Shown here: positions 8,501-22,343 of the stretch, in pieces
Layout of the letters: every line of letters starts with the position of its first letter
Numbering within the stretch: the stretch's first letter is position 1
From: Flavobacterium oncorhynchi
Lineage (GTDB): Bacteria > Bacteroidota > Bacteroidia > Flavobacteriales > Flavobacteriaceae
Length of the DNA stretch: 64,000 bases
Direction of reading: 5' to 3'
NCBI RefSeq assembly: GCF_002217355.1
Contig: NZ_MUHA01000004.1
Location: 12,729-76,728, forward strand
Notes under the pieces: generated by a model
Seen by the model: the letters and a program-made list of their open reading frames with translations, nothing else
Told to the model about the DNA's origin: nothing
Database searches by the model: none
Translations under genes and position numbers: made by a program

Positions 8501-9031
8501 AGCGGGATTTGCGCCTGTAATTAAAAAAGTATCAGCCAATTCAATATCATCATACGCAATTGGTACAGAATCTTCTCCGAAAGTCTTTTTATAACCCACA
8601 ACGGCAGAACTCATGCAGAGTCGTGAATTGGTATCGATATTATTGGTTTTCAAGAAACCTTTTACCAATTTATTTACTAAGTAATATTCCTCAGTTAAAC
8701 ATTGTCCCGAAATATAAAACCCTACACTGTCTGGTCCGTGTTTTTTTATAAAAGAAGAAAAAACTGCCGCAGCGCGATCTAGAGCTGTATCCCAGCTTAC
8801 ACGCTCGAGCGGATAAGATTTACTGCCTCGCATTTCAGGATATAAAATTCGGTCAGAAGTATCATTGACTACGTAATGCAGATTCATTCCTTTAGAACAC
8901 AACATTCCTTTATTTACCGGATGATCTTTGTCACCCTCAACCATAACGCCGTTTTTAGCATCGTTGGTTACGATTATGCCGCAGCCAACGCCGCAATAAG
9001 AACAGGTAGTTTTGATTTTGGTATTTTGCAT
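5513..9031 (-). CDS. nasC: assimilatory nitrate reductase fused to NADH/FAD oxidoreductase and [2Fe-2S] domain
   Basis: A 1172-residue fusion. Residues 1-60 bind a [4Fe-4S] cluster (C10, C13, C17, C45). Residues 60-690 are a molybdopterin oxidoreductase, with SRLCMSSAV supplying the likely Mo-ligand Cys139, and a C-terminal dinucleotide-binding domain. Residues about 706-1070 are a NirB/NasB-like FAD/NAD(P)H module (IAIVGAGAASFRF, then VVIIGGGLLGLELAAAL). The end is a BFD-type [2Fe-2S] domain, with Cys at 1122, 1124, 1156 and 1159. It should reduce nitrate to nitrite in the cytoplasm with electrons taken directly from NAD(P)H. In Bacillus these are separate NasB and NasC proteins. It has no Tat signal. 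It is divergent from the Crp/Fnr gene, and their shared 176-base promoter carries a strong inverted repeat. Confidence 0.93.
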   Translation of the reverse strand: MQNTKIKTTCSYCGVGCGIIVTNDAKNGVMVEGDKDHPVNKGMLCSKGMNLHYVVNDTSDRILYPEMRGSKSYPLERVSWDTALDRAAAVFSSFIKKHGPDSVGFYISGQCLTEEYYLVNKLVKGFLKTNNIDTNSRLCMSSAVVGYKKTFGEDSVPIAYDDIELADTFLITGANPAWCHPILFRRLEKHKEKNPKTKIIVIDPRRTDTAAFADLHLQILPGSDIILYHAIARRIIEKGHVDHDFVKNNAENFKQYKDLVLSTSLEKASKLCGISVNDIKLAADIIGKAKGFISLWAMGLNQSAVGVDKNTALLNLSLLTGQVGKPGSGPFSLTGQPNAMGGREVGGMATLLAAHKDIANPTHRKEVADFWGVDEISDKPGLTATEMFEALESGKMKAVWIICTNPLVSLPDSRRIEKALQNAKFVVVQDISHNADTAKFADLLLPAAGWLEKDGTMTNSERRISYLPKGINAPGEALPDIEILIRFAKKMNFHGFDFNNAEEIYKEHCALTKGTNIDISFLNYNRLKTEGTFQWPVPDYGHPGTPRLFTDKKFYTPSGKAIFNLPVSIENTSVQPNSEFPFILTTGRIRDQWHTMTKTGKVSRLLTHIPSPVLEINPIDAFKNEIKNGDIITVTSKNGEVRVKAKVTDSIKEKVLFLPMHWGKQLENDLNRTNNLTNTVVDPISKEPDFKYTTVSIKKYVKPFQKIAIVGAGAASFRFIQNYREFNTTDEIIVFSNEINPFYNRVLLPEYMTGEFTWEQLLKVKDGEALNKLNITMKAGISIEKIDSNTKTIKDSLGEIHTFDSLILATGSRPFIPENAQLHLPGRFTVRRKEDADRLKKHLDSTNLPPEEQHVVIIGGGLLGLELAAALKHKKVKTTIIQRASRLMERQLDRISSKLLAEEVQLRDIQIYFDNEVSTVFETDNENEIEIALKSGKIITANAIVYTIGTIPNIEIAREGGLACGRGVKVNQYLQTSNPDIFAIGEIAEFNNKLFGITSAAEEQADILANFLAGDISSYYKGSILMNILKLEDINLCSIGDITIPENDDSYEEIVFTDLKKRYYKKCIVKDDLLVGAILMGDKNEFAEFKTMIESKIELSDKRNMLLRGSSTAKPVLGKLVCSCSQVGAGNIEETIKRGVNDFTDLCKNTGAGLGCGSCKTEVKEILAKCKV

Positions 9032-9093
9032 TACAGTTCTTTTTTTAGATACTATTTCCTGAATCTGTAGTGACTTAGATAAATCACTTATAC

Positions 9094-9129
9094 AAAAATA
9101 AGTATTTTTACGTATAAATACTTATTTTT
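9094..9129. promoter_or_regulatory. overlapping Crp-type operators between nasC and the Crp/Fnr gene
   Basis: Two perfect 14-base arms, AAAAATAAGTATTT (9094-9107) and AAATACTTATTTTT (9116-9129), flank TTACGTAT. They can be read as two overlapping Crp-type 16-mers: TAAGT-N6-ACGTA at 9099-9114 and TACGT-N6-ACTTA at 9109-9124. They share the central TACGTA. A TAnnTTTG element for the regulator gene (TATTTTTG, 9144-9151) places the second site near -40. A minus-strand TATTTTTG for nasC (9093-9100) overlaps the first site. Confidence 0.65.
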
Positions 9130-9207
9130 TAGATTTATTTTTTTATTTTTGATGCAATAAAATGAGCAGCAACAAATTAGTTTTTAATCCAATAAAAATT
9201 AGGACTC

Positions 9208-9918
9208 ATGAAAGAAGAACAAACCCTTTGTTATTCTTGTGCCAATGAAAATTGCTTTATCAAGAAACATCTCCATTTAGAGCAAATGAATACTTATGTT
9301 TCTAAGAAACAGAATATAGTCTGCAAAAAATCAGATCAATTTATTGTGGAAGGTTCTTCTTTACAAGGACTTTATTTTATTTGCAAAGGAAAAGCGAAAA
9401 CAGTAAAAACGGGAATTAACGGACGTGAGCAAATTGTACGCTTAACGAAAAGTGGAGATATTATTGGTTTTCGCGGATTTGGAACTGGGAAAAAGTATTT
9501 AATTGGTGCTTATGCCTTGGAAGATACTGTTTTGTGTAATTTTAGCAATGAAACGATGCTGGAAATTTTACAGCATATTCCAGAACTTACCTATGCTTTA
9601 ATGTTGTTTTATGCTGATGAATTGAATAAAAGTGAAAACAACATTCGTAAAATTGCGCATATGAATGTTCGTGAACGTGTGGTTGATTTATTGCTTTATA
9701 TTCATCGTAAATTCGGACAAATCAATGATTTAATTGATATTGATCTTTCTCGCAAAGAAATTGCCGATTTTGCAGGAACGACCGAAGAACAAGCAATTAG
9801 GGTTATTTCAAGTCTTAAAAAAGAAGCTTTAATAAAAACGGTTGGAAAACGAATTGGGATTTTGGAAGTTTCAAAATTACGCTCTGAAATTATGGAACAT
9901 AAATATTTTTCTGTTTAA
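9208..9918 (+). CDS. Crp/Fnr family transcriptional regulator with N-terminal cysteine cluster
   Basis: A 236-residue regulator with a cyclic-nucleotide-binding-like beta barrel (about 30-150) and a Crp-type winged helix. The recognition region is RKEIADFAGTTEEQAIRVISSLKKEALI. The N-terminus has C8, C11 and C16 (CYSCANENC), with more Cys at 39 and 59. This resembles the Fe-S-binding Cys group of FNR but with different spacing, so O2 or NO sensing is possible and unproven. It is divergent from the nitrate reductase gene. The recurrent TA[CA]GT-N6-AC[GT]TA palindrome has the half-site spacing typical of this family, which makes this protein its best candidate ligand and implies autoregulation. 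Confidence 0.88.
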   Translation: MKEEQTLCYSCANENCFIKKHLHLEQMNTYVSKKQNIVCKKSDQFIVEGSSLQGLYFICKGKAKTVKTGINGREQIVRLTKSGDIIGFRGFGTGKKYLIGAYALEDTVLCNFSNETMLEILQHIPELTYALMLFYADELNKSENNIRKIAHMNVRERVVDLLLYIHRKFGQINDLIDIDLSRKEIADFAGTTEEQAIRVISSLKKEALIKTVGKRIGILEVSKLRSEIMEHKYFSV

Positions 9919-9924
9919 TCTTAT

Positions 9925-9940
9925 TACGTAATTCTACGTA
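9925..9940. promoter_or_regulatory. isolated Crp-type palindrome TACGT-N6-ACGTA
   Basis: A perfect TACGT-N6-ACGTA site lies six bases past the stop codon of the Crp/Fnr gene and directly beside the 3' end of the convergent transglycosylase-like gene. No promoter is expected here. It may act as a decoy or terminator-linked site, or be a relic. Confidence 0.4.
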
Positions 9941-10516
9941 TTAATATTTACTTTTTGCTTGGCTATGTAATATACGTTTCAAGAGTAGAACTCTATTACG
10001 AACTACTTTTTTATTTCGTATTGGATCATAAAGACTTGGATTTTTTAACATTGCAATTAAAGTCAAAATTTCTTCTTCATTAAGTTGTCCTATGTTTTTA
10101 TTGAAATAGAACATTGAAGCTTCTTTTACACCGAAAGTTTTGTAGGTAGAGTCAGCATAGACGTGTTTAAAATCAGTATTTAGAAGAAGATATTTATAGC
10201 AATCCGTCTGTGTAAATTCTCTCTGTAATTTAAGTTTATAAAGTGATTTTGTAAATGAATATCCATGTCTGTATACAGGAATATAATCTGTAGCTCGATC
10301 ACAAGGACATTTTTCTTCTTTCATTTTTGTATTTATCTTTTCATAGATACCAGTAAATGTTTTGAGATTTTCTTTCTTTGCTTCATTTATTTTTTCTGTT
10401 AGATCAACAAACTTTTCATTTTTATAAATAGGATTGAAGCCACTTAGTAAAAACGTAATTGTAATTGCCAGGAAGGCAGCCGATATGAGGAATATTCTTA
10501 AAGTCTTTTTAAGCAT
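9941..10516 (-). CDS. short peptidoglycan transglycosylase (GT51)-like membrane protein
   Basis: A 191-residue protein with one N-terminal membrane anchor (residues 7-28). The C-terminal half, FGVKEASMFYFNKNIGQLNEEEILTL followed by LKNPSLYDPIRN and RNRVLLLKRI, matches the end of the GT51 glycan-polymerising domain of class A penicillin-binding proteins (yyFgK..L.l.EaAlLA.l...PS.YnP). The upstream catalytic EDxxFxxH glutamate motif is not evident, so it is short and may be non-catalytic. I chose the ATG at 10516, because the nine codons above it come from a hairpin repeat. Confidence 0.65.
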   Translation of the reverse strand: MLKKTLRIFLISAAFLAITITFLLSGFNPIYKNEKFVDLTEKINEAKKENLKTFTGIYEKINTKMKEEKCPCDRATDYIPVYRHGYSFTKSLYKLKLQREFTQTDCYKYLLLNTDFKHVYADSTYKTFGVKEASMFYFNKNIGQLNEEEILTLIAMLKNPSLYDPIRNKKVVRNRVLLLKRILHSQAKSKY

Positions 10517-10531
10517 AAAAAGGGTGTTTTT

Positions 10532-10559
10532 GTAGAGACGCATCTGGGTACGTCTCTAC
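10532..10559. repeat. hairpin repeat GTAGAGACG / CGTCTCTAC
   Basis: Perfect 9-base arms, GTAGAGACG (10532-10540) and CGTCTCTAC (10551-10559), are separated by 10 bases. The repeat sits in the short gap between the methyltransferase and transglycosylase-like genes. It could be a dispersed element or an attenuator hairpin. Confidence 0.6.
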
Positions 10560-10569
10560 TTCGAATAAT

Positions 10570-11190
10570 TTATTTTTTCCTACCAATAAATCGAATTACA
10601 GAACCCGTTCCGTTATGGAATAAACCTTCGTTTAATTCGATTTCTTTTTCTTCTAATTCGATGATTTCATAATTCGGAAAATCACTTTTTATTTCTTCTA
10701 TAGAAAATAGAGATTCAATATCTTTTGGTCCGCCAACTTTATCATTTATTGCAAGATATTCTAAATGCTTTTTGCTGAAAGCTTCAAAAATAATAATACC
10801 GTCTTTGCGTAATAGTTTATCAAGCTGTTTGTGAATTTCGGATTTAATTTCTGCAGGGAAATGAGCATAAATCAAGGCAATTACATCAAATTGTTCTTCT
10901 TTGAAATTTAGCGTTTCTAATTCGCCAACTTGATAATCAATCGAAACATTGTTGGCTTCAGCAAGTTTTAAAGCTTTATTTTTTCCTTCTTCACTAATAT
11001 CAAAAGCGGAAACGTTCCAACCCAATTTTGCAGCAAAAATGGCATTTCGTCCTTCGCCTTCGGCAGGAAAAAGAATAGTGCTGGGTTTTAATTTTTGAAT
11101 TTGTTCTTTTAAGTAATTGTTGGGTTCTTCGCCATATGCAAATTCTTCGTTGCTGTAGCGGTCATCCCATCTTTGGGTCCAGTTGTTCAT
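10570..11190 (-). CDS. class I SAM-dependent methyltransferase
   Basis: A 206-residue protein with a Rossmann methyltransferase fold. Motif I is degenerate ([15 protein letters not shown], instead of the usual DxGxGxG). Motif II is VSAFDIS, and the motif IV-like segment is [11 protein letters not shown]. The start [24 protein letters not shown] is typical of the TehB/thiopurine-like subfamily. Substrate unknown. It follows the nuclease/phosphatase gene by three bases on the same strand, so the two are probably co-transcribed. Confidence 0.8.
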
Positions 11191-11193
11191 TAT

Positions 11194-11907
11194 TTATAAA
11201 TTAAAATTAATTATTAAAGGTTTATGATCACTGTGTAAAGTCCAATCTTTGTAATTTCCGACTTCAACACTTTCTAAAACTTCCATAAAATCATTTGAAG
11301 CAAAACAATAATCTATATGATAAGGTTTGTTTTCGTGCTTATAAAGATATAAAGTTGGATGTTGTTCTTGACCTTGAATCTGATTAAAATATTTATGATA
11401 GGTGCTAAAAATATTTTTATCGGCTAATTTATTTACGACTGTCGTATGATTCCCTTTACGACGCGGTTTGTCCCAAATGGTATTGCTGTTGAAATCGCCA
11501 ATTAAAATTGTTTTGGTCTCTTTGATAAGATCTTCATAATAATTAATCGCTTTCCAAACTTGCGATATGTATGCGCCATCTTTATCTGCGGGATTATTTG
11601 CCCAAATAGCAAATAAGGTAAAATCAACTTTTCCGCCCGTAATCGCTATCGGTAAGATATTTTTGAAGTCCGGATTATGACAATTTAATAATTGAAAGTG
11701 ATAATTGCTGTAGGAGAGAACGCCAAGTCCTTTATTCGGATTTGTACCGTACCAAAGAATGTCATTTGGTGTTTGTACTTCATTTGAGAATTTTAATTTT
11801 TCAGGATTTTCACACTCAGAAATTATGACAATATCAGGGTTATGAGTCAGAATGAATTTTGCTTTTTTTCTGAATGCCATGTTGCAATTCCAAGCTATGA
11901 GTTTCAT
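11194..11907 (-). CDS. endonuclease/exonuclease/phosphatase family protein
   Basis: A 237-residue DNase I-like metal-dependent phosphodiesterase. Visible family motifs are the N-terminal LIAWNCNMAF (metal-site Asn), DIVIISECENP (metal-binding Glu), LIGDFNSN (catalytic Asp and Asn) and the terminal HSDHKPLI (catalytic Asp-His). No signal peptide, so a cytoplasmic nuclease or phosphatase of unknown substrate. It is transcribed with the methyltransferase 3 bases downstream. Confidence 0.85.
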   Translation of the reverse strand: MKLIAWNCNMAFRKKAKFILTHNPDIVIISECENPEKLKFSNEVQTPNDILWYGTNPNKGLGVLSYSNYHFQLLNCHNPDFKNILPIAITGGKVDFTLFAIWANNPADKDGAYISQVWKAINYYEDLIKETKTILIGDFNSNTIWDKPRRKGNHTTVVNKLADKNIFSTYHKYFNQIQGQEQHPTLYLYKHENKPYHIDYCFASNDFMEVLESVEVGNYKDWTLHSDHKPLIINFNL

Positions 11908-11949
11908 TGAAAATCTTTTATTTTGGGAATAATGTACTCAAATGTACGC

Positions 11950-11993
11950 AAAAAAAATCCCCTTTTTCTTTATTTAAAAGAGGGGGTTTTTAA
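11950..11993 (-). terminator. terminator of the porin gene
   Basis: On the minus strand the stem AAAAACCCCCTC...GGGGATTTTT (imperfect) ends in a run of T, 20-60 bases past the porin stop codon. It likely ends the narK-porin transcript. Confidence 0.65.
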
Positions 11994-12013
11994 TATTAAT
12001 TTTTAGAAAAAAA

Positions 12014-13273
12014 CTATTTCTTCCAGCTAAAAATCCTAGGATTTACAGAAATCATTAACCAAGCCCAATTGTTAGTATGACCTGCATCTCCGTTTTTCAA
12101 GAACTCTAAAGTTTTTGAACCAAACATTTGAGAATAACCTCCAGTTAGTGTAATGTCTTTTTTGAAATTGTAGCCTGCAGTAAAATCGACCTCAGTTCCT
12201 AAGTAAGAATCAAGTTTTTCATTTGTTGGAGTCACAACATCTGCGGCAGATAAAAATACGTGCGGCATTAACGCAAACTGCCATTTTTTGACATTATAAC
12301 TTAGTTTTAAGTAGGCATCTTGCAAACCAACGCTGTTTTGGTGATTTCCAACATAAAAATAATCCATATAACCATTAAAAGCATGATTGGTTCCAAATAT
12401 TGGATTGAACGATTTAATTACTGTACTGCCGTCATTTGTATCTTTTCCAGATAAAAATTCATAACCTAAACCAGCTTTAAAGGCATCAGAAATGTTGTAT
12501 CCTAAATAACCAGCGGCATTCCATGCACTTACCTGCTTGTCTGTACTTTTACCAGTTTGTCCATATAACCAGAAATTAGTATCTAATTTACCCGTTTTAT
12601 AGGTTAAATACGTTCCAAAAGTCTGTTTGTAATCTACCAATAATTTTGCGTCGGCATTGGCATATTCATATCCAGTATTTAGGGCTAATAAACTCATGCC
12701 TAAATTACTGAACGATGTGTGGTACCAAGCATATTGTATAGCTTTGTAGTTGGCGACAGTGTATGGAGTTTGCACTATATTTTCGGCATTTGAGTTGAAA
12801 GCAAATCCCATATCAAGCTGCTGGTTTTTTGGGCGGAAAGTAACCAGTACTGCATCGTGACTTTGTCCTTGTTGTAACCAATCGATTTCACCCATTATAC
12901 GCTGATTGTCATAAGAGAGTACTTGGCGCCCAACTCTTGCGCTCCATTTTTCGGTGAAGTTGTATTGTGCCCAAGCCTCAAAAACGGCAACTCCATTTTT
13001 ATCTGCGGTGGTTGTGGTTGGTACATCGCCCCAGGTTCTAATGTTTTGAAGAGTTAATTTAACAATCAAATCATCTTGCTTAAAATTTAAATTTAAACGG
13101 GAACGCTGCGAGATTTGCGAAGTTCCTTCTTGACCTTCTGGTAATAAAGTTTTGTATCCGTTTCGATATTCGAAACGTGGTCTTAATTGTAAGTTGGCAT
13201 CAAATTCTTGTGCTTGCATGGCAGCACCAAATCCTAGAAAAAGTAAGGATAGAATTATTCTAGTTTTTTTCAT
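12014..13273 (-). CDS. alginate-export-family outer membrane porin
   Basis: A 419-residue protein with a signal peptide (MKKTRIILSLLFLGFGAAMQAQ) followed by amphipathic beta strands alternating with short loops. The segment RLNLNFKQDDLIVKLTLQNIRTWGD and the WSARVGRQVLSYDNQRIMGEIDW motif are characteristic of the alginate_exp barrel family. In this family the ligand is often not alginate. Its place 99 bases downstream of narK, on the same strand, suggests an outer membrane channel that admits nitrate or nitrite, which is inference. The C-terminus ends in aromatic-rich strands, as expected for a barrel. Confidence 0.8.
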   Translation of the reverse strand: MKKTRIILSLLFLGFGAAMQAQEFDANLQLRPRFEYRNGYKTLLPEGQEGTSQISQRSRLNLNFKQDDLIVKLTLQNIRTWGDVPTTTTADKNGVAVFEAWAQYNFTEKWSARVGRQVLSYDNQRIMGEIDWLQQGQSHDAVLVTFRPKNQQLDMGFAFNSNAENIVQTPYTVANYKAIQYAWYHTSFSNLGMSLLALNTGYEYANADAKLLVDYKQTFGTYLTYKTGKLDTNFWLYGQTGKSTDKQVSAWNAAGYLGYNISDAFKAGLGYEFLSGKDTNDGSTVIKSFNPIFGTNHAFNGYMDYFYVGNHQNSVGLQDAYLKLSYNVKKWQFALMPHVFLSAADVVTPTNEKLDSYLGTEVDFTAGYNFKKDITLTGGYSQMFGSKTLEFLKNGDAGHTNNWAWLMISVNPRIFSWKK

Positions 13274-13372
13274 ATCTATGATGGTTTAATAAAAGACAAA
13301 TTTATCTTATAATGATTTTACTTTTAGTGATATTAATCATATTTGATAATTATTTTTAAACTTTTAATACGC

Positions 13373-14851
13373 TTATTTTCTGTCTATTACTTTTGCCAAA
13401 GCCAGTTGTTTTTCGTTCATGATTTTAGTTACGGTATAATGCATCCAAACGAGACAAATGGTCGAGAATAGTAAAATAAAAATCCATGAACTTGACCAAA
13501 TTCCTGTTGCGGTCAGCAAGTATCCAAAGATGATTGGACCTAAAAAGCCGCCCAAACCCCCAATCATTCCAACCATACCTCCAACAACACCAACCTCTGT
13601 AGGGAAATATTCTGGGATATGTTTGTAAACTGCTGCTTTGCCAATTCCCCAAGAAATTCCAATTAAAATTACTAAAATTAAGAATACCCACATATTAGCA
13701 TCGAATTTTATTACAGTAATTCCTTTTGCCAGCAGTTCCTTTTTCTTTACGGTTTGGTTCTGTGCGACAACAACTTGCTGCCAAGATGTTCGAGTTGGGA
13801 GAATTGTATTTTCAGAATTGTTTTCTTGTTTTTGCGCAATATTAAATTCTGTTTCACCTATTTTAATGTTGTCTTTTGCAATAGAAGTTACTGTTCCTTT
13901 TTTTGTTGCAAGAAGGCCGGGACCTGTAGTAGTGATTTCCATTTTCGGAACCATTAATAGAGCACTTAAAATAACAGAAGAACTTAAAACCCAATACATA
14001 ACTTTTCGCGCACCAAATTTATCTGATAAATAACCTCCAAAAGCCCTTATTACACCAGAAGGAAGACTAAACATTGTGGCAAATAATCCGCCCATAACCA
14101 AGCTGGTTTGGTAAACGTTCATAAAATTGGGCAGCAGCCATTGAGAGTACGCAACAAAGCAGCCAAAAACTAAAAAGTAGTAAGCTCCAAATCGCCAAAC
14201 TCTAGCTGATTTTAGCGAACCAAGCATTTGACGAACGCTTTTTGTATGGTTCTCAATTTTTTTATTTTTAGCAAAAATTAAAAAAGCAATTCCAATTAAA
14301 ACAAGGGAAAAAGCATAGATAATTGGAAGTATTTTCCAGCCATTTTGCGGATCCTCTAAAGAGAAATGATTTAATAGCGAAGGCGCTAAAAATGTGGTAA
14401 TTGCAGCTCCCGCATTTCCCATTCCGAAGATTCCTAAAGCGCGTCCCTGCCATTCTTTTGGATACCAGATTGAAGTATATCCTATTCCTACAGCAAAACT
14501 AGTTCCTACCATTCCAAATAAGAAACTGAGTAAAGCAAACATAAAAAAACTGTCAGCATAGGGCAGGAGAAACAGCGGAATTGAGCTAAGCAGCAATAAA
14601 AGTGAAAAGATATATTTCCCTCCAAATTTATCTGTGAGCATACCAATTGGTAAGCGCATAATTGAGCCTGTTAAAATTGGAATTCCCAAGAGCCATCCAA
14701 CTTGAACAACGCTCCAATGAAAAATTCCGTTATCGACCAAAAAGGTTACTAAAACCCCGTTTAATGTCCAGCAGGCAAAACACACAGTAAAAGCCAATGT
14801 GTTCAAAAATAAAATTTTGTGTGATTGAGATAATGAGTTTGTAGTTTTCAT
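13373..14851 (-). CDS. narK: NarK-type nitrate/nitrite MFS transporter with extra periplasmic loop
   Basis: A 492-residue protein with 12 predicted membrane segments. It has the nitrate/nitrite porter signature GIGYTSIWYPKEWQGRALGIFGMGNAG and the second-half motif GIGKAAVYKHIPEYFP...GVVGGMVGMIGGLGGF. It should carry nitrate in, or exchange nitrate for nitrite, at the inner membrane. Residues 304-383 form an extra loop between segments 9 and 10, predicted periplasmic. It is beta-rich, and its stretch VVVAQNQTVKKKELLAKG recalls a lipoyl/biotinyl-like hybrid hairpin. The typical NarK lacks such a loop. Two Crp-type palindromes lie just upstream. Confidence 0.92.
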   Translation of the reverse strand: MKTTNSLSQSHKILFLNTLAFTVCFACWTLNGVLVTFLVDNGIFHWSVVQVGWLLGIPILTGSIMRLPIGMLTDKFGGKYIFSLLLLLSSIPLFLLPYADSFFMFALLSFLFGMVGTSFAVGIGYTSIWYPKEWQGRALGIFGMGNAGAAITTFLAPSLLNHFSLEDPQNGWKILPIIYAFSLVLIGIAFLIFAKNKKIENHTKSVRQMLGSLKSARVWRFGAYYFLVFGCFVAYSQWLLPNFMNVYQTSLVMGGLFATMFSLPSGVIRAFGGYLSDKFGARKVMYWVLSSSVILSALLMVPKMEITTTGPGLLATKKGTVTSIAKDNIKIGETEFNIAQKQENNSENTILPTRTSWQQVVVAQNQTVKKKELLAKGITVIKFDANMWVFLILVILIGISWGIGKAAVYKHIPEYFPTEVGVVGGMVGMIGGLGGFLGPIIFGYLLTATGIWSSSWIFILLFSTICLVWMHYTVTKIMNEKQLALAKVIDRK

Positions 14852-14875
14852 AGCACTTATATTTTTATGTAAAAA

Positions 14876-14891
14876 TAAGTACTATAACTTA
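14876..14891. promoter_or_regulatory. Crp-type palindrome TAAGT-N6-ACTTA upstream of narK
   Basis: Exact match to TA[CA]GT-N6-AC[GT]TA, centred about 32 bases upstream of the narK start codon. It is the nearer of two such sites in this 98-base gap. Confidence 0.55.
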
Positions 14892-14925
14892 GTTAAAAGA
14901 TGCTAAAACGCAGTTTTTGGAAAAT

Positions 14926-14947
14926 AAATACGTATTAATACGTATTT
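14926..14947. promoter_or_regulatory. 22-base perfect palindrome containing TACGT-N6-ACGTA upstream of narK
   Basis: A perfect 22-base palindrome centred about 85 bases upstream of the narK start. Its core (14929-14944) is TACGT-N6-ACGTA. It lies three bases from the stop codon of the upstream response regulator gene, within the only non-coding space available to a narK promoter. Confidence 0.6.
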
Positions 14948-14949
14948 TT

Positions 14950-15609
14950 TTAAATCAAAGAATATTCAGCAGCTTTGTTAGAAAGTTCCATTAAGTTTTT
15001 AACTTTCAATTTTTTCATTAGATTAAAACGGTGTACTTCAGCAGTACGTTTGCTGATATCAAGCGCTTCGGCAATTTCTTTGTTTCCTTTTCCGGATAAT
15101 AAAAGAGTCAGAATTTCTTTTTCTCTTTTAGTAATCATCATTTCTTCACTTAGATTTTGTTTAGGTTCTAGTGATGTTGACGAATTTGTAAGCTGGCTTA
15201 TTAGAATAGAAGAAATATCACCACTAAAATATTTTCCGCCGGCAGCCACTGTGTGTAAGGCTTTCAAGAATTCTTCTTTACTTGAACCTTTTAGCAAATA
15301 ACCATCGGCACCAGCTTTTATAGATTTCAATACATATTCTTCAGATTCATGCATAGAAAGCATAATAATTTTTACATTGTTATTTTCGCTTCTAAGTTTT
15401 TCTACTACCTCGATGCCCGTTAAATTTGGCATACGAATATCTACTATAAGTAAGTCTGGTTTGCTTTCGGCAACAACATCAAGTGCATCAGCTCCATCAA
15501 TTGCTTCGCCAACGACTTCAATGTTTGCTTCATTTTCAAGTAAAGATTTAATTCCATCTCTTACAAAAACATGGTCGTCTGCCAGCACTACACGAATGAT
15601 ATTACTCAT
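14950..15609 (-). CDS. NarL/LuxR-family response regulator
   Basis: A 219-residue regulator. The receiver domain has DD at 11-12, phosphoacceptor Asp57 (LLIVDIRMPN), Ser/Thr near 84 and Lys at about 106. The LuxR-type helix-turn-helix lies at about 155-215 (TKREKEILTLLLSGKGNKEIAEALDISKRTAEVHRFNLMKKL). This is the NarL/UhpA architecture. The likely partner is the NarX-like kinase encoded on the same strand 700 bases upstream, beyond a block of repeats. It is followed by narK, which it may control. An 11-base inverted repeat sits in its own promoter region. Confidence 0.9.
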   Translation of the reverse strand: MSNIIRVVLADDHVFVRDGIKSLLENEANIEVVGEAIDGADALDVVAESKPDLLIVDIRMPNLTGIEVVEKLRSENNNVKIIMLSMHESEEYVLKSIKAGADGYLLKGSSKEEFLKALHTVAAGGKYFSGDISSILISQLTNSSTSLEPKQNLSEEMMITKREKEILTLLLSGKGNKEIAEALDISKRTAEVHRFNLMKKLKVKNLMELSNKAAEYSLI

Positions 15610-15637
15610 AGTTTACTTAAATTAGATTCTTGATTTT

Positions 15638-15678
15638 TTACGTATATTCATCTATAAAGAAGACGCTAATATACGTAA
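15638..15678. promoter_or_regulatory. 11-base inverted repeat upstream of the response regulator gene
   Basis: TTACGTATATT (15638-15648) is mirrored by AATATACGTAA (15668-15678) across 19 bases, 30-70 bases upstream of the start codon. The two TACGTA cores are three helical turns apart. The site differs from the 16-mer Crp-type operator, so a different protein, perhaps the response regulator itself, may bind. Confidence 0.5.
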
Positions 15679-16313
15679 TTTTTTAGATTTTAAATTCTAA
15701 CATTAAAATTTCTAATGTTGGAAATTCTAAATTATACAATTGTCAGGCTGAGCGAAGTCGAAGCTTACGTACGTTGCGCTGTAAAATTGTCGATTAAGAT
15801 TGCTTGGGCTTCGACTTCGCTCAGCCTGACAAGCTTATCTAGAATTTGATAATCGACTTTGACAAAGTTTGGCTTTCAATTGCCTCCAACTTTAGTCGGA
15901 GGTTTTTGTAGATATGAGAAAGGGCTTTAGCCGAATGTGTATGTATTTGGCTAAAGCCCTTTTTTATACTTGTCTGTATTCCACCAGCTAAAGCTGGAGG
16001 CAATTGATTTATTTTAAGTTTAATTAAAAGCAAAATATTTTTTGAAAGCGTTTACCCGCGAGAGGGATAGGAGCAAGCTACCGAAGTAGCGCGGATAGCC
16101 CGACAGTATTAGGGAAAGTGGGCGCATATAGACAAAGTTAAATTGCCCACTTTTTCTAATACTGGATCGCCTTGATAATTAGATAATTAGTAAATGTGGT
16201 AATTAGATAATGATTTTGTCGATTTACTTTGCAGGGTTTCGACTTCGCTCAGCCTGACAAGTAGGAGTTCGACGTTTGGGTAAATTATATAATTATCTAA
16301 TTGACTAATTTTC
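15679..16313. repeat. 635-base block of intergenic repeats
   Basis: No gene is apparent between the response regulator and sensor kinase genes. The block holds a family B inverted repeat (15740-15833). A longer nested inverted repeat (15877-16006) has CAATTGCCTCCA / TGGAGGCAATTG ends and GGGCTTTAGCC / GGCTAAAGCCC inner arms. A GAGGGATAGGAG...GGATAGCCCGACAG unit with GTGGGC / GCCCAC arms spans 16055-16160, and a lone family B arm sits at 16234-16260. Short frames here (15839-16033, 16187-16387) are translations of the repeats. Confidence 0.75.
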
Positions 16314-18122
16314 TCATTTGAGAATCGGAATATTAAAGGTAATCCTTGTTCCTTCGCCAAGAATTGATTTGATGAAAACACGCCCATTAATGTATTGGAT
16401 TCTTTCTTTCATAAACAACAAACCCATTCCAGATTCGCTGTTGCGTTTTTTGTCGACAGCATTGATGTCGAAACCTTTTCCGTTATCGTCAATTATAATG
16501 CTTAACAAAGTTTCACTGTGAGAAAGTTGAACAATGATATGGGACGATTCGGCATATTTTATGGCGTTGTTTATAGCTTCTTGAGTTAGGCGATAAATAT
16601 TGATTTCGATTAAAGAATCTAATCGTTGATTGAAATCGGTTTTGTTGTAGAAAAGAATTTCTTTTCCTGTTAGTTTTGAAAGTTCCTGCGTAAGTTTTGC
16701 CAAGGATGAAACAATGCCGTGATCACTTAATTCAGGAGGCATTAAATTGAAAGTTGCTGTACGGACGCCTTTTATAATGTCTAGTGAAAGTTTCTTTAGA
16801 TACTCAATTTTTTGTTCTGATTTTTCTCTGTCATCTAAATTGATACTTTCTAAGCTAAACTTTAAACCAGTCAGCATTTGACCAATTCCGTCATGAATTT
16901 CTTTGGCGATTCGGTTTTGCTCGTTTTCTTGGTTTTCGACGATTTTGCTTGAGATAATCTTTTGCTGATTGATTTTTTCAGTGCTGTTTTCAAGATTCAA
17001 ACGTTCGACCTCGCGTTGTGCTTTTTTGCGCTCGGTAATGTTAAAACAGACAATTAAAAGTTCTAATTCGTCTTTTTTAATCATAACGGGAACCATCGAA
17101 AGGTCAAGCCAAATCTCAACATTTTCTTTGGTAACAATTTTAATTTCGCCTTGCCAGCCGCTTCGTTGTTTTTCGAATATCAGTCGATCAAAGTTGATTT
17201 GTTCTTTTTCGTCTGCTGTTAAAACTTCAGAAAACTTCTTGTTGGATAAAAACTTGGTGTAATTCAGTAGTTTAGCAAATTTTTCGCCAATATGTATGAT
17301 TGAACCATCAGGTGCAATTCGGCAATAGAGCAATGTGTTTTCCATTGCATAATTAAGCGACTTTAATTCTTTAACCGAATTTTCCTTGATTTCGCTTAGT
17401 ATTTCAGTATCGTATGCGAGTTTTAACGCTTTCTTTTCAGAAGATAAAAGTTTGGCAATTAATCGTTCAATTTTTTTATTGGTTGGTCTAAAAATGAAAA
17501 GAAACTCTAAAAGCAATACCAAAAGTGTAAACCCGAAAATCCAGTATTCAATTCGGCGTTGTTCGGTTACTTTTTCGTGCGCTTCGAGATCGTATTGACT
17601 TACAATCTGATTCATTTTAGAAAGAAAAATGCCTTCGTTTTCTAAAATTATAGTTACTAATTTTTGATTTTCGGCTGCTTGCTTTTTCTGTTTTAAATTC
17701 AATAAAAAAGAATCAGTTGTATTTGCAATTTTATTGAAAATCGGATTGATTTCAAGATATAATTTAGAAAGTGTTTCTGATTTTTCTTTTGGAAAGGCTA
17801 AGCTGTCACTTCCGTTTTGGAGTGCATTTTGGTTTTTTTTCCAAAGTGATAAAACGTCATTTAAATGCGAAATTTGTTTTGCAGAAGCGTTTTCAGAAAC
17901 ATACTGCAGAATCAGAACTTCTTTTACGATTTTCTGACTCAGCATTCGTTGTTTTCCTGAAAAGTTTATGATTTTAGAATCGCTTAATTGCTGATTCAGA
18001 TTGTATTGCACTAAAATCTGACTGATAATTATAGTTACCGCAATAGTAAGAAGCGCAAAAAAATACAGTCGTCGTAAATTTTTGAAAGTGATTTTGTCTT
18101 CTTCCTGATTGCTTTTCTTCAT
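16314..18122 (-). CDS. NarX-like membrane sensor histidine kinase
   Basis: A 602-residue kinase. Membrane segments at about 20-40 and 193-211 flank a periplasmic PilJ/NIT-type helical domain. Its start, IINFSGKQRMLSQKIV (51-66), resembles the NarX P-box that binds nitrate. A PAS domain (about 255-370) is followed by a HisKA_3 dimerisation domain, with His410 in AKEIHDGIGQMLTGLKFSLE, and a GHKL ATPase domain (NAIKYAESSHIIVQL, DNGKGFD, GMGLLFMKERI). This is the NarX/NarQ class that signals to NarL-type regulators such as the one downstream. It begins nine bases after the DUF4202 gene, so the two form an operon. Confidence 0.88.
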   Translation of the reverse strand: MKKSNQEEDKITFKNLRRLYFFALLTIAVTIIISQILVQYNLNQQLSDSKIINFSGKQRMLSQKIVKEVLILQYVSENASAKQISHLNDVLSLWKKNQNALQNGSDSLAFPKEKSETLSKLYLEINPIFNKIANTTDSFLLNLKQKKQAAENQKLVTIILENEGIFLSKMNQIVSQYDLEAHEKVTEQRRIEYWIFGFTLLVLLLEFLFIFRPTNKKIERLIAKLLSSEKKALKLAYDTEILSEIKENSVKELKSLNYAMENTLLYCRIAPDGSIIHIGEKFAKLLNYTKFLSNKKFSEVLTADEKEQINFDRLIFEKQRSGWQGEIKIVTKENVEIWLDLSMVPVMIKKDELELLIVCFNITERKKAQREVERLNLENSTEKINQQKIISSKIVENQENEQNRIAKEIHDGIGQMLTGLKFSLESINLDDREKSEQKIEYLKKLSLDIIKGVRTATFNLMPPELSDHGIVSSLAKLTQELSKLTGKEILFYNKTDFNQRLDSLIEINIYRLTQEAINNAIKYAESSHIIVQLSHSETLLSIIIDDNGKGFDINAVDKKRNSESGMGLLFMKERIQYINGRVFIKSILGEGTRITFNIPILK

Positions 18123-18131
18123 AAAGTCAGT

Positions 18132-18716
18132 TTACAATCCTAAAGATGCTTTTATAAGATTGAGATTTTCTTCAGAATAGTTGATTTTTAAGGCTTCCTG
18201 ATGTCCTTTATCCGACATTTTATCCCAGGTTTTTTTGATGATGTTTTTTAGTTTTTCTTCATCGTGTTTATGAACAAAAGGATCTAAGTAATATTCTAAA
18301 AACACAAGACAGATAACATCTTCTAATAATTGTGTTTCGTGATCTTTTTTAAGTAATTTTTTCTCTATTAAAAATGAAACGCGATCTATAAAAGTTTCAT
18401 CGTAGCCTGCTTTTACTAGAATTTCGGCAGTTGTTTTTGCATGGAATTTTTTAAGTTCTTCTCTCCATTTCAAATAACCAACGCGATCCATTGGGTACGA
18501 TTCGCGGGCAACTTTCCATCGGCAGATGTGTTGTGCTTTTGACGCAATTTGAATTTCTTCAGATGCATTTGGTTCGAACTGCATCAATCTTTCGTACATC
18601 CTGTTTGAATACAATAATTCTTTTGGATATTCTTTGTTTTGGTGAGTTTCGATGTTTGGATCCTGTGCGTTTTCAGCATCAATCCATTCGCTTGCTTTTT
18701 GAAAAGGTGTAGTCAT
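18132..18716 (-). CDS. DUF4202 domain protein
   Basis: A 194-residue soluble protein matching the DUF4202 family by its QIASKAQHICRWKVARESYPMDRVGYLKWREELKKFHA core. The family has no established function. The His/Arg-rich core with repeated helices resembles an HD-type or metal-binding helical bundle, but a catalytic claim is not justified. It precedes the nitrate-sensor-like kinase by nine bases and stands between it and nirD, so a role in nitrate/nitrite control or tolerance is inferred from context. Its promoter has TATCTTTG (minus strand, 18739-18746) overlapping a TACGTA. Confidence 0.8.
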   Translation of the reverse strand: MTTPFQKASEWIDAENAQDPNIETHQNKEYPKELLYSNRMYERLMQFEPNASEEIQIASKAQHICRWKVARESYPMDRVGYLKWREELKKFHAKTTAEILVKAGYDETFIDRVSFLIEKKLLKKDHETQLLEDVICLVFLEYYLDPFVHKHDEEKLKNIIKKTWDKMSDKGHQEALKINYSEENLNLIKASLGL

Positions 18717-18738
18717 TTTTTGGTTTAATAATAGATTT

Positions 18739-18750
18739 CAAAGATACGTA
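18739..18750 (-). promoter_or_regulatory. -7 element overlapping TACGTA for the DUF4202-kinase operon
   Basis: On the minus strand TATCTTTG (18746-18739) fits the Bacteroidota -7 element TAnnTTTG, 23 bases upstream of the DUF4202 start codon. A TACGTA (18745-18750) overlaps its upstream edge. No full 16-mer operator is formed. Confidence 0.45.
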
Positions 18751-18757
18751 ATTAAGT

Positions 18758-18955
18758 TTTTTTTCGCCACGAATTTCACGAATTAGCACGAATTATTGTT
18801 TATGTTTTTTTGCCACAGATTAAAGGATTTTTTGGATTTAATCTTGTGTATTTTTTTTTTGCCACGAATTTCACGAATCTCCACGAATTAAATTAGTGTA
18901 ATTTGTGAAATTCGTGGCAAACAATTTTAATTATTTTAATCTGTGGCATATAAAT
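18758..18955. repeat. family C intergenic repeats (CACGAATT units)
   Basis: The gap between nirD and DUF4202 is filled by CGCCACGAATTTCACGAATT units. A near-perfect hairpin at 18861-18918, GCCACGAATTTCACGAAT...GTGAAATTCGTGGC, is followed by an ATCTGTGGC arm matching the GCCACAGAT at about 18811. No gene is seen. Confidence 0.65.
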
Positions 18956-19332
18956 TAGTCTGCAAATCCAACGAAAACTTCATTTTCGACAATCTTAATT
19001 GGGTAAGTTGCAATGCTATATTCTTCGCCGTTTAGATTCGAGCCATCAACTAATGAAAATGTTTTTTTATGCATTGGGCAGGCGATTTTCGGGATATCAT
19101 CGGCAGAACCTGTCATTCCTCTTGAAAGTACCATTTCCATTTTGTGAGGGCAGGCGTTTTGACAAGCGTACCATTCGTTTCGACGGGCAAAATTAAAAAT
19201 CGCAATCTGTTTGTTTTTGTATTTAATACAGCCGCCGCGATTGGTTGGAAAATCTTCTACTTTACCTGCTTTGAACCAAATTGTTGCATCGCTCGCATGA
19301 ACTGTTTCGTATTGATTTAAGATTTCTTCCAT
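18955..19332 (-). CDS. nirD: nitrite reductase small subunit NirD (Rieske-like)
   Basis: A 125-residue Rieske [2Fe-2S] protein of the NirD size. The cluster ligands are visible as CPH (in NACPHKMEMVLSRG) and CPMH (in KIACPMHKKTFSL). NirD pairs with NirB in the cytoplasmic NADH-dependent reduction of nitrite to ammonium. It lies downstream of nirB on the same strand, but 370 bases of repeat-containing DNA separate them, unusual for a pair normally in tight operon. Confidence 0.92.
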   Translation of the reverse strand: MEEILNQYETVHASDATIWFKAGKVEDFPTNRGGCIKYKNKQIAIFNFARRNEWYACQNACPHKMEMVLSRGMTGSADDIPKIACPMHKKTFSLVDGSNLNGEEYSIATYPIKIVENEVFVGFAD

Positions 19333-19702
19333 TTTGATTGAGTTTTGATTTCCTGTTTCTTAGCCCTCTTTTTACAATCAAGAGAGTTTGATGGCGCAGT
19401 AAAAAAGAGGGTAAGAAGGACAGCAAACGTTTAATGATTTTTTCTTTTTTTTGGAGCTTTATGGTGTTTTGCCACAAAGGCGTAAAGACGCTAATTCTTT
19501 TTTTAATCTTTCTAATCCTTTAATCTGTGGCTTTTATTTTAAACACATAGAAACATAGATTTTTTTGCTTTTTGTTTGAGAAATAGAAAATTAAAAGAAA
19601 CTAGTTTCTAACACATAGCTATACGTGTTTATGCAAGTTAAACGCCTTTATTAAGTTTTTAAAATCTATGTCTCTATGTGTTTAAAAATTTATGTCTTGA
19701 AT
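19333..19702. repeat. gene-free gap between nirB and nirD with family D inverted repeat
   Basis: No gene is apparent. From about 19540 to 19684, an AACACATAGAAACATAGATTT arm is mirrored by AAATCTATGTCTCTATGTG. This is the same family as 28112-28236. The nirD-proximal half (19345-19500) is AT-rich, with GCCACAAAGGCG and CTGTGGC fragments. A 71-codon frame here appears spurious. Confidence 0.6.
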
Positions 19703-22216
19703 TTACAACCAAGCTTTTGGCATTTTTTGATCTCTTAGCGGAACAAAAACAGCATTGTCGTCTTTTTCTTCTGAGTTTATAAAGTGATTGAAACGTTTTA
19801 ATAATCTTGGTTTTTCTAGAACTTGTTTCCATTCACATTCAAAAGTGTTTACTAAAGCTTGCATTTCAGTTTCTAAAGTTTCACAGATTCCTAAACTGTC
19901 TTCAATAATTACTTCTTTCAAATATTCTAAACCGCCATCTAATTTTTCTAACCAAGTTGATGTTCGAATCAGCGGACCGGCAGTTCTGATGTAATACATT
20001 AAAAATCTATCCATGTATTTGATTACTGTTTCTTTATCGATTTTTTCAGCTAATAAAACGGCGTGTTTTGGGTTTGCACCGCCATTTCCAGCGATGTATA
20101 AATTCCATCCGTCTTCAACCGCGATTAAACCGAAATCTTTTCCTCGGGCTTCGGCGCATTCGCGAATGCAGGCTGAAACACCGCCTTTTAGTTTATGCGG
20201 AGAACGAATTCCTTTGTATCTGTTTTCAAGTTCGATGGCAAATCCAGCGCTGTCGTCCATTCCGTAGCGGCACCAAGCGTTTCCAACACAGCTTTTTACG
20301 GCACGAAGTGATTTTCCGTAGGCATGACCGCTTTCAAAACCATTATCAATTAAGATTTTCCAGATTTTAGGCAAATCACTTAAATGAGCTCCAAATAAAT
20401 CGACTCTTTGAGCTCCGGTAATTTTAGTGTATAAATCGAATTGTTTTGCGACTTCGCCAATCACAATTAATTTTTCAGCAGTGATTTCACCGCCGGCAAC
20501 TCTTGGCACAACAGAATAAGTTCCGTTTCGTTGAATGTTAGCCAAAAATCTATCGTTTGTATCTTGAGTGGTTACGTGTTTATTTGCTGTATCATTGTAA
20601 ATACTTGAAAAAATTGATGCTACAACTGGTTTGCAAATTTCGCAGCCGTCGCCTTTTCCGTGGTGATCTAAAACATCGTAAAAATTCTCATATTTATTTA
20701 TTTTTACCAAATCGAATAATTCTTGACGATTATAATTAAAATGTTCGCAAATGACTTCTTTTACTTCTTTTCCTAAAGATTTTTGAGTGGCTTTTACCAA
20801 ATCGGAAACCATTGGTTTACAACCTCCACAGCCAGAAGTTGCTTTGGTTGCTTTTACAACATCAGAAAATGTAGTGCAGCTTTCATCTAAAATTTTACAG
20901 CAGATCGCGCCTTTCGTTACATTTTCGCAAGAACAAATTACGGCTGTATCTGGCAAATCCATAACACTTCCTAAACTTGAGCCTTCAGAGCCATCGCGAG
21001 TACCTAAAATCAAATCTTCTGGATTTTTTGGTAATGCCATTGCGTTGCTGTAAATCTGGAAGAGCGAATTATAATCACTTGAATCTCCAACTAAAATGCC
21101 GCCTAAAAGCGTTTTAGAATCTTTGGTAACGTTGATTCTTTTGTAAACACCGCTTAGTTTATTTTCATAAATAATGGCTGTTACATTTTCATTTTCGATA
21201 AAAGGATCACCAAAACTCGCCACTTCAACACCAATTAATTTTAATTGTGTTGACATATCGATGGTTTCTCTCATGGTTTTATCTCCATTTAAGATTTGCT
21301 CGGCGGCAACATCGGCCATTTCGTAACCTGGAGCAACAAGTCCGTAAATGTTTTGATTGTAAAGCGCCGCTTCTCCAATCGCATAAATAGAAGGATCTGA
21401 TGTCTGCATTTGATTGTTTACTACAATTCCACCTCTCACGCCGACTTCAAGTCCTGAAATTCTAGCCAATTCGTCGCGAGGTTTAATTCCTGCAGAAATA
21501 ACCAACATGTCTACTTTTAGTAATTCATCGTTGGCAAACATCATTCCGGTTATACTTTCTTTTCCGTCGATATATTGTGTTGCTTTGTTAAGATGAATTC
21601 CAATGTTTAATTCTTCAATTTTAGATTGAAGCATATCGCTTGCGCCTTGATCTAATTGCCTTGGCATCAAACGCGGAGCAAATTCCACCACATGCGGATT
21701 CAGTCCCAAATCTCTAACGGCTTTTGCTGCTTCAAGACCTAATAAGCCACCTCCTAAAACTGCCGCTTCGGTTGCGCCTTTTATTTTTATTTTTTTGGCG
21801 TAAGCCATAATCGCATCAAGATCTTCGATGGTTCTGTATACAAAAACACCTTCCTTTTCAACTCCGTCAATTGGAGGAACAAAGGCTGATGAACCTGTAG
21901 CTAAAACTAAGTAGTCGTACGTATGTGTTTTTTCTAAATGTGTATGTATTGTTTTTTCGGTACGATTAATATCTGTAATTAACTCTGATGTATTGAGAAT
22001 AATATTGTTTTCTGTGTACCAATTGCTTGTCGATAAAGATAAATCATCAGCTGTTTTTCCTCCAAAGTATTCACTTAAGTGAACGCGATCGTAAGCGCGC
22101 CTTGGTTCTTCACCAAATACAGTGATTTGATACTTTTCCTGTCCTGATTTTGCAATGAATTTTTCACAAAATTTATAACCAACCATGCCGTTTCCAACTA
22201 CTATTACTCTAATCAT
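19703..22216 (-). CDS. nirB: NADH-dependent nitrite reductase large subunit NirB
   Basis: An 837-residue protein of normal NirB length. It has FAD and NAD(P)H Rossmann domains (VGNGMVGYKFCEKF, then VLGGGLLGLEAAKAV), two BFD-like segments (VICSCENV...GCGGC; then a second with GCEIC) and a siroheme/[4Fe-4S] reductase module. That module has the ligands CVGNAWC and CIREC (C-x5-C, C-x3-C) in the KSCVGNAWCRYG and KGGVSACIRECAEA segments. It reduces nitrite to ammonium in the cytoplasm, completing assimilation of the nitrate reduced by the enzyme at 5513-9031. Crp-type palindromes lie upstream. Confidence 0.96.
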   Translation of the reverse strand: MIRVIVVGNGMVGYKFCEKFIAKSGQEKYQITVFGEEPRRAYDRVHLSEYFGGKTADDLSLSTSNWYTENNIILNTSELITDINRTEKTIHTHLEKTHTYDYLVLATGSSAFVPPIDGVEKEGVFVYRTIEDLDAIMAYAKKIKIKGATEAAVLGGGLLGLEAAKAVRDLGLNPHVVEFAPRLMPRQLDQGASDMLQSKIEELNIGIHLNKATQYIDGKESITGMMFANDELLKVDMLVISAGIKPRDELARISGLEVGVRGGIVVNNQMQTSDPSIYAIGEAALYNQNIYGLVAPGYEMADVAAEQILNGDKTMRETIDMSTQLKLIGVEVASFGDPFIENENVTAIIYENKLSGVYKRINVTKDSKTLLGGILVGDSSDYNSLFQIYSNAMALPKNPEDLILGTRDGSEGSSLGSVMDLPDTAVICSCENVTKGAICCKILDESCTTFSDVVKATKATSGCGGCKPMVSDLVKATQKSLGKEVKEVICEHFNYNRQELFDLVKINKYENFYDVLDHHGKGDGCEICKPVVASIFSSIYNDTANKHVTTQDTNDRFLANIQRNGTYSVVPRVAGGEITAEKLIVIGEVAKQFDLYTKITGAQRVDLFGAHLSDLPKIWKILIDNGFESGHAYGKSLRAVKSCVGNAWCRYGMDDSAGFAIELENRYKGIRSPHKLKGGVSACIRECAEARGKDFGLIAVEDGWNLYIAGNGGANPKHAVLLAEKIDKETVIKYMDRFLMYYIRTAGPLIRTSTWLEKLDGGLEYLKEVIIEDSLGICETLETEMQALVNTFECEWKQVLEKPRLLKRFNHFINSEEKDDNAVFVPLRDQKMPKAWL

Positions 22217-22248
22217 GATTTTTTTAATTAAGTATTACTACGCAAATA

Positions 22249-22264
22249 TAAGTATTTATACTTA
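22249..22264. promoter_or_regulatory. Crp-type palindrome TAAGT-N6-ACTTA upstream of nirB
   Basis: An exact operator match centred 40 bases upstream of the nirB start codon. It lies within a perfect ATAAGTAT-TT-ATACTTAT inverted repeat. The half-sites are identical to the narK-proximal site at 14876. Confidence 0.6.
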
Positions 22265-22313
22265 TTTAAATACGTAAAATATTTATTTTTTAAGTAGATA
22301 TAGATTTTGTTTG

Positions 22314-22343
22314 CTACGTATTTTACCGTAATGTATTACGTAG
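22314..22343. promoter_or_regulatory. second TACGTA-containing inverted repeat upstream of nirB
   Basis: CTACGTA (22314-22320) and TACGTAG (22337-22343) form 7-base arms. The left half also makes TACGT-N6-CCGTA (22315-22330), one mismatch from the operator consensus. It lies about 100 bases upstream of nirB. Confidence 0.45.

Follow-up and report, generated by a model that had tools for sequence, protein, structure and literature searches.

What reads the palindromes that precede the nitrate assimilation genes of Flavobacterium oncorhynchi? We addressed this question in 64,000 nucleotides of contig NZ_MUHA01000004.1 (assembly GCF_002217355.1, positions 12,729 to 76,728, forward strand), here called the window, in which a 13-kb cluster holds nitrate and nitrite reductase genes, a narK-like transporter gene, a NarX/NarL-like two-component system and a Crp/Fnr-family regulator. 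A preliminary description of this DNA had interpreted repeated matches to TA[AC]GT-N6-AC[GT]TA as a Crp-type operator. Based on comparison across genomes, we consider, with a probability of roughly 0.78, that the element, TAMGTAT-N2-ATACKTA, is the operator of the cluster's two-component system and serves to activate the assimilation genes. For a large bacterial family, this result points to a likely regulator of nitrate assimilation and to a regulon that can be tested, and it corrects an easy error, in which the nearest Crp is named as the binder of a palindrome of 16 base pairs (bp).

Exact sites cluster at the nitrate assimilation promoters and are conserved

We searched with a loose pattern, TA[AC]GT-N6-AC[GT]TA, and a stricter one, TAMGTA-N4-TACKTA. 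Seven exact matches to the loose pattern were found in the window, all within the 13-kb nitrate cluster, while dinucleotide shuffles of the window gave a mean of 0.12 and a maximum of 1. The six exact sites reported in the preliminary description, at 9099, 9109, 9925, 14876, 14929 and 22249, are all present, and the list lacked only a seventh, at 21908 inside nirB. Allowing up to one mismatch raised the count to 15, against 7.2 expected and 13 in the largest shuffle, so that single sites of this kind, such as the one at 22315, correctly described as having one mismatch, are individually unsupported. A genome scan had been proposed as a check; in the 4.73-Mb genome the loose pattern is not enriched (19 places, 43 for the reversed control), and seven of the 19 places fall in the 13-kb stretch. 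The signal therefore lies in clustering, which is strong in the nitrate cluster, and in conservation, rather than in the overall count. The stricter form occurs at 11 places (control, 5), of which six are in the window, one is intragenic, and one each precedes a moeA-like, a modE-like, an sdhC-like and a sucA-like gene. The sites, the associated promoter boxes and the putative target genes in the window are:

9099 to 9124, no strand: three half-sites TAAGTA-N4-TACGTA-N4-TACTTA, that is, two overlapping 16-bp sites with a common middle half-site, in the divergent nasC/crp promoter region
9093 to 9100, minus strand: nasC -7 box TATTTTTG (TAnnTTTG, by sequence; consensus from an excerpt of PMC9723704), its TA common with the 9099 site
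9925 to 9940, plus strand: exact site in the gap between crp (3' end at 9918) and the convergent 9941-10543 gene
14876 to 14891, minus strand: narK-proximal site TAAGTTATAGTACTTA (loose pattern only), abutting TATTTTTA
14929 to 14944, minus strand: narK-distal site TACGTATTAATACGTA
21908 to 21923, plus strand: exact site inside the nirB coding sequence
22243 to 22250, minus strand: nirB -7 box TATATTTG, its TA common with the operator
22249 to 22264, minus strand: nirB site TAAGTATAAATACTTA, 48 to 33 bases before the ATG
22315 to 22330, minus strand: one-mismatch site of the preliminary description, unsupported singly
5513 to 9031, minus strand: putative target, NasC-like nitrate reductase in fusion with an N-terminal reductase part of NirB type, scoring below the NCBIfam equivalog cut-offs
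13373 to 14851, minus strand: putative target, NarK-like nitrate/nitrite transporter
19703 to 22216, minus strand: putative target, nirB, nitrite reductase large subunit

The sites at 9099/9109, 14876/14929 and 22249 do lie upstream of nasC/crp, narK and nirB, as had been proposed; the one at 9925 is upstream of no named gene. It is possibly a remnant of the porin/nrtABC operon promoter found at this place in other species: a loose site follows crp within 500 bp in 41/80 loci, a porin-like gene follows crp in L083-L085, L090 and L095, and nrtABC-like genes come after it in the three of these examined, L083, L084 and L095. The 21908 site is probably due to chance. Near the nirB site, additional half-sites at 22229 and 22239 keep a 10-bp register.

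Conservation was evaluated in the best 80 of 108 Flavobacterium-type loci holding Crp. Within the 260 bp upstream of crp, 75/75 nasC-linked loci and 0/5 unlinked ones have a strict site, and 61 of the 75 have three tandem half-sites. For narK, scorable in 57 of the 80 loci, all 57 keep the site and 51 have two. The proposal of a real, conserved operator-like site of nitrate assimilation promoters is thus borne out by the crp (75/75) and narK (57/57) loci.

The site accompanies the response regulator in genomes with and without Crp

The regulators encoded in the cluster, with the gene that adjoins them, are:

9208 to 9918, plus strand: Crp/Fnr-family regulator with cysteines C8, C11, C16 and C110
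14950 to 15609, minus strand: NarL/FixJ-type response regulator (RR), the proposed binder (Pfam Response_reg and GerE)
16314 to 18122, minus strand: nitrate-sensor-type histidine kinase (PilJ/NarX-like sensor, PAS, HisKA_3)
18132 to 18716, minus strand: DUF4202 gene between the kinase gene and nirD (Pfam PF13875, E 2.9e-75)

The presence of Crp, RR and nirB was compared across the same 249 Flavobacteriaceae genomes (RR, E<=1e-55; nirB, E<=1e-150; close Crp homologue, E<1e-70). nirB and the RR occupy the same 60 genomes, and a close Crp homologue is found in 44 of those, so that the Crp set is contained within the identical RR and nirB sets. A distant Crp paralogue, near 30% identity, is widespread among the 249. 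We scored 59 nirB promoters, and 58 carry an exact strict site (shuffled mean 0.05): 43/44 in Crp-positive and 15/15 in Crp-negative genomes. The sixteenth Crp-negative genome, G265, was dropped by the start filter and was seen by eye to have the site. All 16 RR-positive, Crp-negative genomes therefore retain the nirB site, and each has at least two strict sites in the stretch that was fetched; four of them are without a Crp match at E<=1e-20. The operator does not depend on the presence of a close Crp homologue.

A second draw covered the whole phylum (247 genomes, 19 with nirB; RR cut-off E<=1e-45), and nine of its nirB-positive genomes were read, namely all eight from outside the Flavobacteriaceae and G353, from within the family. 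Two RR-positive genomes, G453 and G353, have an exact site, and a third, G438, has several TACGTA half-sites in 61% GC DNA; the fourth, G449, has none. The five RR-negative genomes (G299, G356, G364, G469 and G484) have no site within 200 bp at up to two mismatches. Three of these, G299, G356 and G364, encode a Crp/Fnr protein (32-36% identity) near nirB and are siteless nevertheless.

These observations bear on the proposal that the 9208-9918 protein binds the sites, with a paralogue of the same specificity taking its place in Crp-negative genomes. The symmetric 16-bp spacing fits the Crp/Fnr family, crp, linked to the cluster, has a site of its own, and 12 of the 16 Crp-negative genomes do have a distant Crp match near 30%. 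Against this stand the nirB sites kept in all 16 genomes, including the four without a Crp match, and the siteless RR-negative genomes with a Crp/Fnr gene. On these grounds Crp was judged a very unlikely binder.

The motif is a 7-2-7-like repeat that often shares the -7 box

As read from the aligned letters, the motif is a 16-bp, 7-2-7-like repeat, TAMGTAT-N2-ATACKTA, built from helically phased half-sites. Among 58 nirB sites, T occupies position 7 in 76% and A occupies position 10 in 71%, giving the half-site TAMGTA[TA] and an inverted repeat of two heptamers 2 bp apart. The distances between half-sites peak at 10, 20-22, 31-33 and 42-43 bp; the first of these peaks follows from site selection, while the others do not. 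The NarL heptamer consensus is TACYYMT, from which the half-site differs, and where Crp/Fnr sites have the GA core of TGTGA or TTGAT the motif has G-T. The 16-bp length, which had suggested a Crp-type operator, fits NarL 7-2-7 sites equally well: in an excerpt of PMC4549865, the engineered NarL 7-2-7 site TACCCCTAAAGGGGTA is likewise a 16-bp inverted repeat with TA ends.

When the 58 nirB promoters were aligned on the site, TTTG appeared at a fixed distance (T 86%, T 100%, T 97%, G 93%), with exactly TTTG in 45/58 and xTTG in 53/58, meaning that the operator ends in the TA with which TAnnTTTG begins. Across genera, TAnnTTTG with a common TA was found in 21/32 nirB and 20/32 crp site-gene pairs, and over all 173 pairs in 46 (mean of mononucleotide shuffles, 1.4). 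It is rare at nrtA (3/49) and nasC (1/19), and sharing of the TA is thus a trait of some promoters, not all. The Bacteroidota -7 box TAnnTTTG is placed at -12 to -5 in an excerpt of PMC9723704, which puts the operator at about -26 to -11 in most nirB and many crp promoters. A TTG at the distance of a -33 element (offsets -12 to -6 before the site) was found in only 6/58 nirB promoters. For the study of activators on the divergent Bacteroidota promoter, a site of this kind, if it is an activator site merged with the -7 box, would be a useful example.

This architecture raises two other explanations. The first is a reader co-inherited with the cluster: a regulator encoded elsewhere, the DUF4202 protein, or an alternative sigma factor for which site and TTTG together would form an extended promoter. 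At most nirB promoters TTTG keeps a fixed distance, as an element of the promoter might, DUF4202 was seen in 27/34 fetched nirB loci of other genera (some stretches end early) and in 0/6 motif-less nirB loci, and matching sites exist in some RR-negative genomes. We regard such a reader as unlikely, considering that the DUF4202 protein matched no other Pfam domain, hence no DNA-binding one, that the nrtA, nasC, cobA and sdhC sites stand mostly at other distances from TTTG, and that dyad symmetry with phased half-sites suits a dimeric regulator. No paper combining DUF4202 with nitr was found in open-licence literature.

The second explanation accepts the RR as binder and makes it mainly a repressor, which would block polymerase by covering the spacer and the -7 box until the signal arrives. 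The position at about -26 to -11 suits it, and NarL represses frdA from -4/+6 (an excerpt of PMC4549865). Conversely, the nrtA, cobA and sdhC sites lie mostly elsewhere relative to the -7 box, the scarcity of the -33 TTG is what activator-dependent promoters would show, and repression of assimilation by nitrate would make little sense. If the RR is the binder, repression seems to us the lesser possibility, at perhaps one chance in four.

A putative NarX/NarL-like pair is encoded in the cluster

The RR combines a receiver (PF00072) with a GerE/LuxR helix-turn-helix (PF00196), and its best solved relative by phmmer is E. coli NarL (1a04, E 2.8e-39, residues 6-208). Its score of 163.4 bits against the NCBIfam NarL equivalog is below the cut-off of 250, so by that model it is NarL-like and not a NarL orthologue. 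The recognition helix, S[KR]RTxExHRFN, is kept in 110/111 RR sequences, a set that includes some genomes twice. In the exception, G449, the helix reads VRTVDNHRAN, with Glu replaced by Asp and Phe by Ala, and the same genome is without the site.

The kinase shows the N, G and R of the P-box, each in 78/78 homologues whose alignment covers the box (150 loci given); N..G..R is the motif of nitrate-sensing kinases in an excerpt of PMC8199190. Against the NCBIfam NarX and NarQ equivalogs it scored 57.5 bits (cut-off 578) and 56.4 bits (cut-off 553), and Pfam gave no HAMP or GAF match.

Several observations weigh against the assignment to the RR. Association alone cannot single it out, because the RR and nirB co-occur completely and the kinase and DUF4202 are linked to both. 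AT-centred strict sites number 4.98 per genome in the RR-positive, Crp-positive class (n=44), 2.88 in the RR-positive, Crp-negative class (n=16) and 0.39 in RR-negative genomes (n=189); the low figure in RR-negative genomes favours the RR, but the excess in Crp-positive genomes speaks for Crp as the binder. Among the 189 RR-negative genomes, 47 have at least one matching site and 15 have two or more, so that chance or some other use must account for part of its occurrences; where such sites were read by eye (G225 and G176, four places each; G053, two; G139 and G213, one each), their neighbours had no theme in common. G438, although RR-positive, is without a strict site, and one of its half-site pairs is spaced by 5 instead of 4. 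G449 has an RR-like gene adjoining nirB and no site; at 42% identity this may be a non-orthologue, because genomes without nirB show the same level, and it is the sole case of helix and site changing together. The contact residues of NarL are not conserved in the RR. Finally, the location of the operator in the promoter spacer is compatible with repression as well.

The Crp/Fnr protein is probably a target of the sites

The four cysteines C8, C11, C16 and C110, an arrangement suited to an iron-sulfur cluster, are invariant in 81/81 Crp homologues and match the cysteine pattern of FNR. With 75.7 bits against a cut-off of 228 for the NCBIfam Fnr subfamily, the protein is FNR-like and not Fnr by this model. 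In an alignment to FNR, it retains the Glu and the Arg of the recognition helix. The Glu, that of position 181, is linked to an A where our motif has T (an excerpt of PMC1274295), a further point against Crp as the reader of the sites.

The same is suggested by an FNR-like palindrome, TGAY-N4-RTCA, found before nap in 10/10 Crp-positive loci examined (shuffled mean 0.11); these are the ten, out of 40 fetched Crp-positive loci, in which moeA and nap were found head to head and no more than 1.5 kb apart, and the pattern was chosen after viewing the same ten promoters, so the figure cannot count as independent evidence. The name nap was given for the likeness of the gene to nasC and for its neighbours, read by eye. 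In nirB promoters the palindrome occurs in 1/44 Crp-positive and 0/15 Crp-negative genomes. No Crp motif was found directly before napA, because napA lies inside the operon (matches to TGA-N6-TCA counted there fall in coding sequence and are meaningless); it is the nap operon promoter that carries the FNR-like palindrome. In the genome of the window, a second nitrate reductase cluster has ATATGACATATGTCAT 94 bp ahead of its first transporter gene. Taken together, these sequence comparisons suggest that Crp may read the FNR-like palindrome at nap, and that it is probably a target of the TAMGTAT-N2-ATACKTA sites rather than their reader.

The second cluster lies just upstream of the window (L104:484-8084) and encodes a NarK-like transporter, a NasC-like reductase and a ferredoxin-like protein, with the FNR-like palindrome at L104:390. 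A napA-like frame at L153:3360-5687 is broken by an in-frame stop near 4412, either an error or a real break.

Reach of the putative regulon

In other Flavobacteriaceae genera, sites were found before nirB, nasC, crp, nrtA, cobA, RR and moeA genes. The moeA site is exact in 4/4 further Flavobacterium. The modE-like gene has a site in 4/4 other Flavobacterium with a close homologue (85-89%), three exact and one with one mismatch; more distant ModE-like genes have it in 0/13. The sucA site was seen in one genome, the gene being named by eye and the site flagged inside a doubtful overlapping reading frame. For sdhC, an exact site occurs in 7/31 RR-positive, Crp-positive genomes, 0/16 RR-positive, Crp-negative genomes and 0/14 RR-negative genomes. 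This distribution, confined to Crp-positive genomes, adds to the points against the RR, as it leans towards a Crp link at sdhC.

The NirB-like part of the 5513-9031 nitrate reductase spans residues about 707-1169, and the fusion may be an NADH-dependent single-chain enzyme.

Proposed mechanism and relation to known systems

We propose that the kinase would sense nitrate through its PilJ/NarX-type sensor and phosphorylate the RR, a dimer of which would bind the inverted half-sites, often as helically phased arrays, and activate the promoters of nasC, narK, nirB, crp, nrtA, cobA, moeA and modE. In most nirB and many crp promoters, the bound dimer would stand where a -33 TTG is mostly absent. The Crp/Fnr protein would act downstream and may have an FNR-like site of its own at nap. 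Comparison establishes the sites and their conservation, the way they follow the regulator, the common TA of the -7 box and the phasing, whereas we infer binding, nitrate as the signal and activation rather than repression.

The proposal resembles NarX/NarQ-NarL/NarP of E. coli in the RR, closest to NarL among solved structures, and in the nitrate-type P-box of the kinase. It differs in the half-site (TAMGTAT here) and the recognition helix, in a kinase without HAMP or GAF match, in the assimilation genes controlled, and in an operator that often shares the Bacteroidota -7 box. From Crp/Fnr regulators such as FNR, CRP and HcpR, with which it has the 5-6-5 framing over 16 bp in common, the operator is set apart by TACGT in place of TGTGA or TTGAT and by its persistence without a close Crp homologue. 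The staphylococcal NreBC site is TAGGGT-N4-ACCCTA, letters not found in the papers searched. Unlike the system described here, NreBC has a GC-rich site and an oxygen-sensing kinase, NreB, together with NreA, and serves respiration; it is alike in that a NarL-type RR binds a palindrome before nitrate/nitrite reductase and transporter genes (excerpts of PMC8139620 and PMC5694512). Nitrate/nitrite-sensing kinases of Bacteroidetes also have no HAMP or GAF, adjoin nitrate genes and, in Flavobacteriales, contain PAS (PMC8199190); that paper covers kinases, and the portions consulted contain no Bacteroidetes operator or regulon. No such regulon or operator is described in the titles and abstract openings that our searches of open-licence literature listed (20 of 43 in one of them), where the motif letters searched were TAGGG and TAnnTTTG.

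More broadly, and tentatively, since we hold this wider picture to be somewhat less probable than an even chance, a NarX/NarL-derived system may have been rewired for assimilation in Flavobacteriaceae and a few other Bacteroidota, with a changed helix and a new operator. It would activate from the promoter spacer through half-sites fused to TAnnTTTG that replace the -33 element, and its regulon would reach molybdenum uptake and cofactor synthesis and feed an FNR-type regulator of nitrate respiration.

Other loci

At locus L307 (G502), DUF4202, the RR, a porin gene and one site remain, while nirB, nirD and the kinase are unmatched in the stretch, and the genome has no nirB match either; this is perhaps a decayed cluster. 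Four of the five RR-negative, nirB-positive genomes (L302-L305) have a common TTATGAC upstream of nirB, by eye, perhaps the site of another regulator. Palindromes like TACGTAG-NN-CTACGTA recur in some RR-negative genomes (G127, G079), with six copies of one sequence in G127, and are probably repeats or sites of another regulator.

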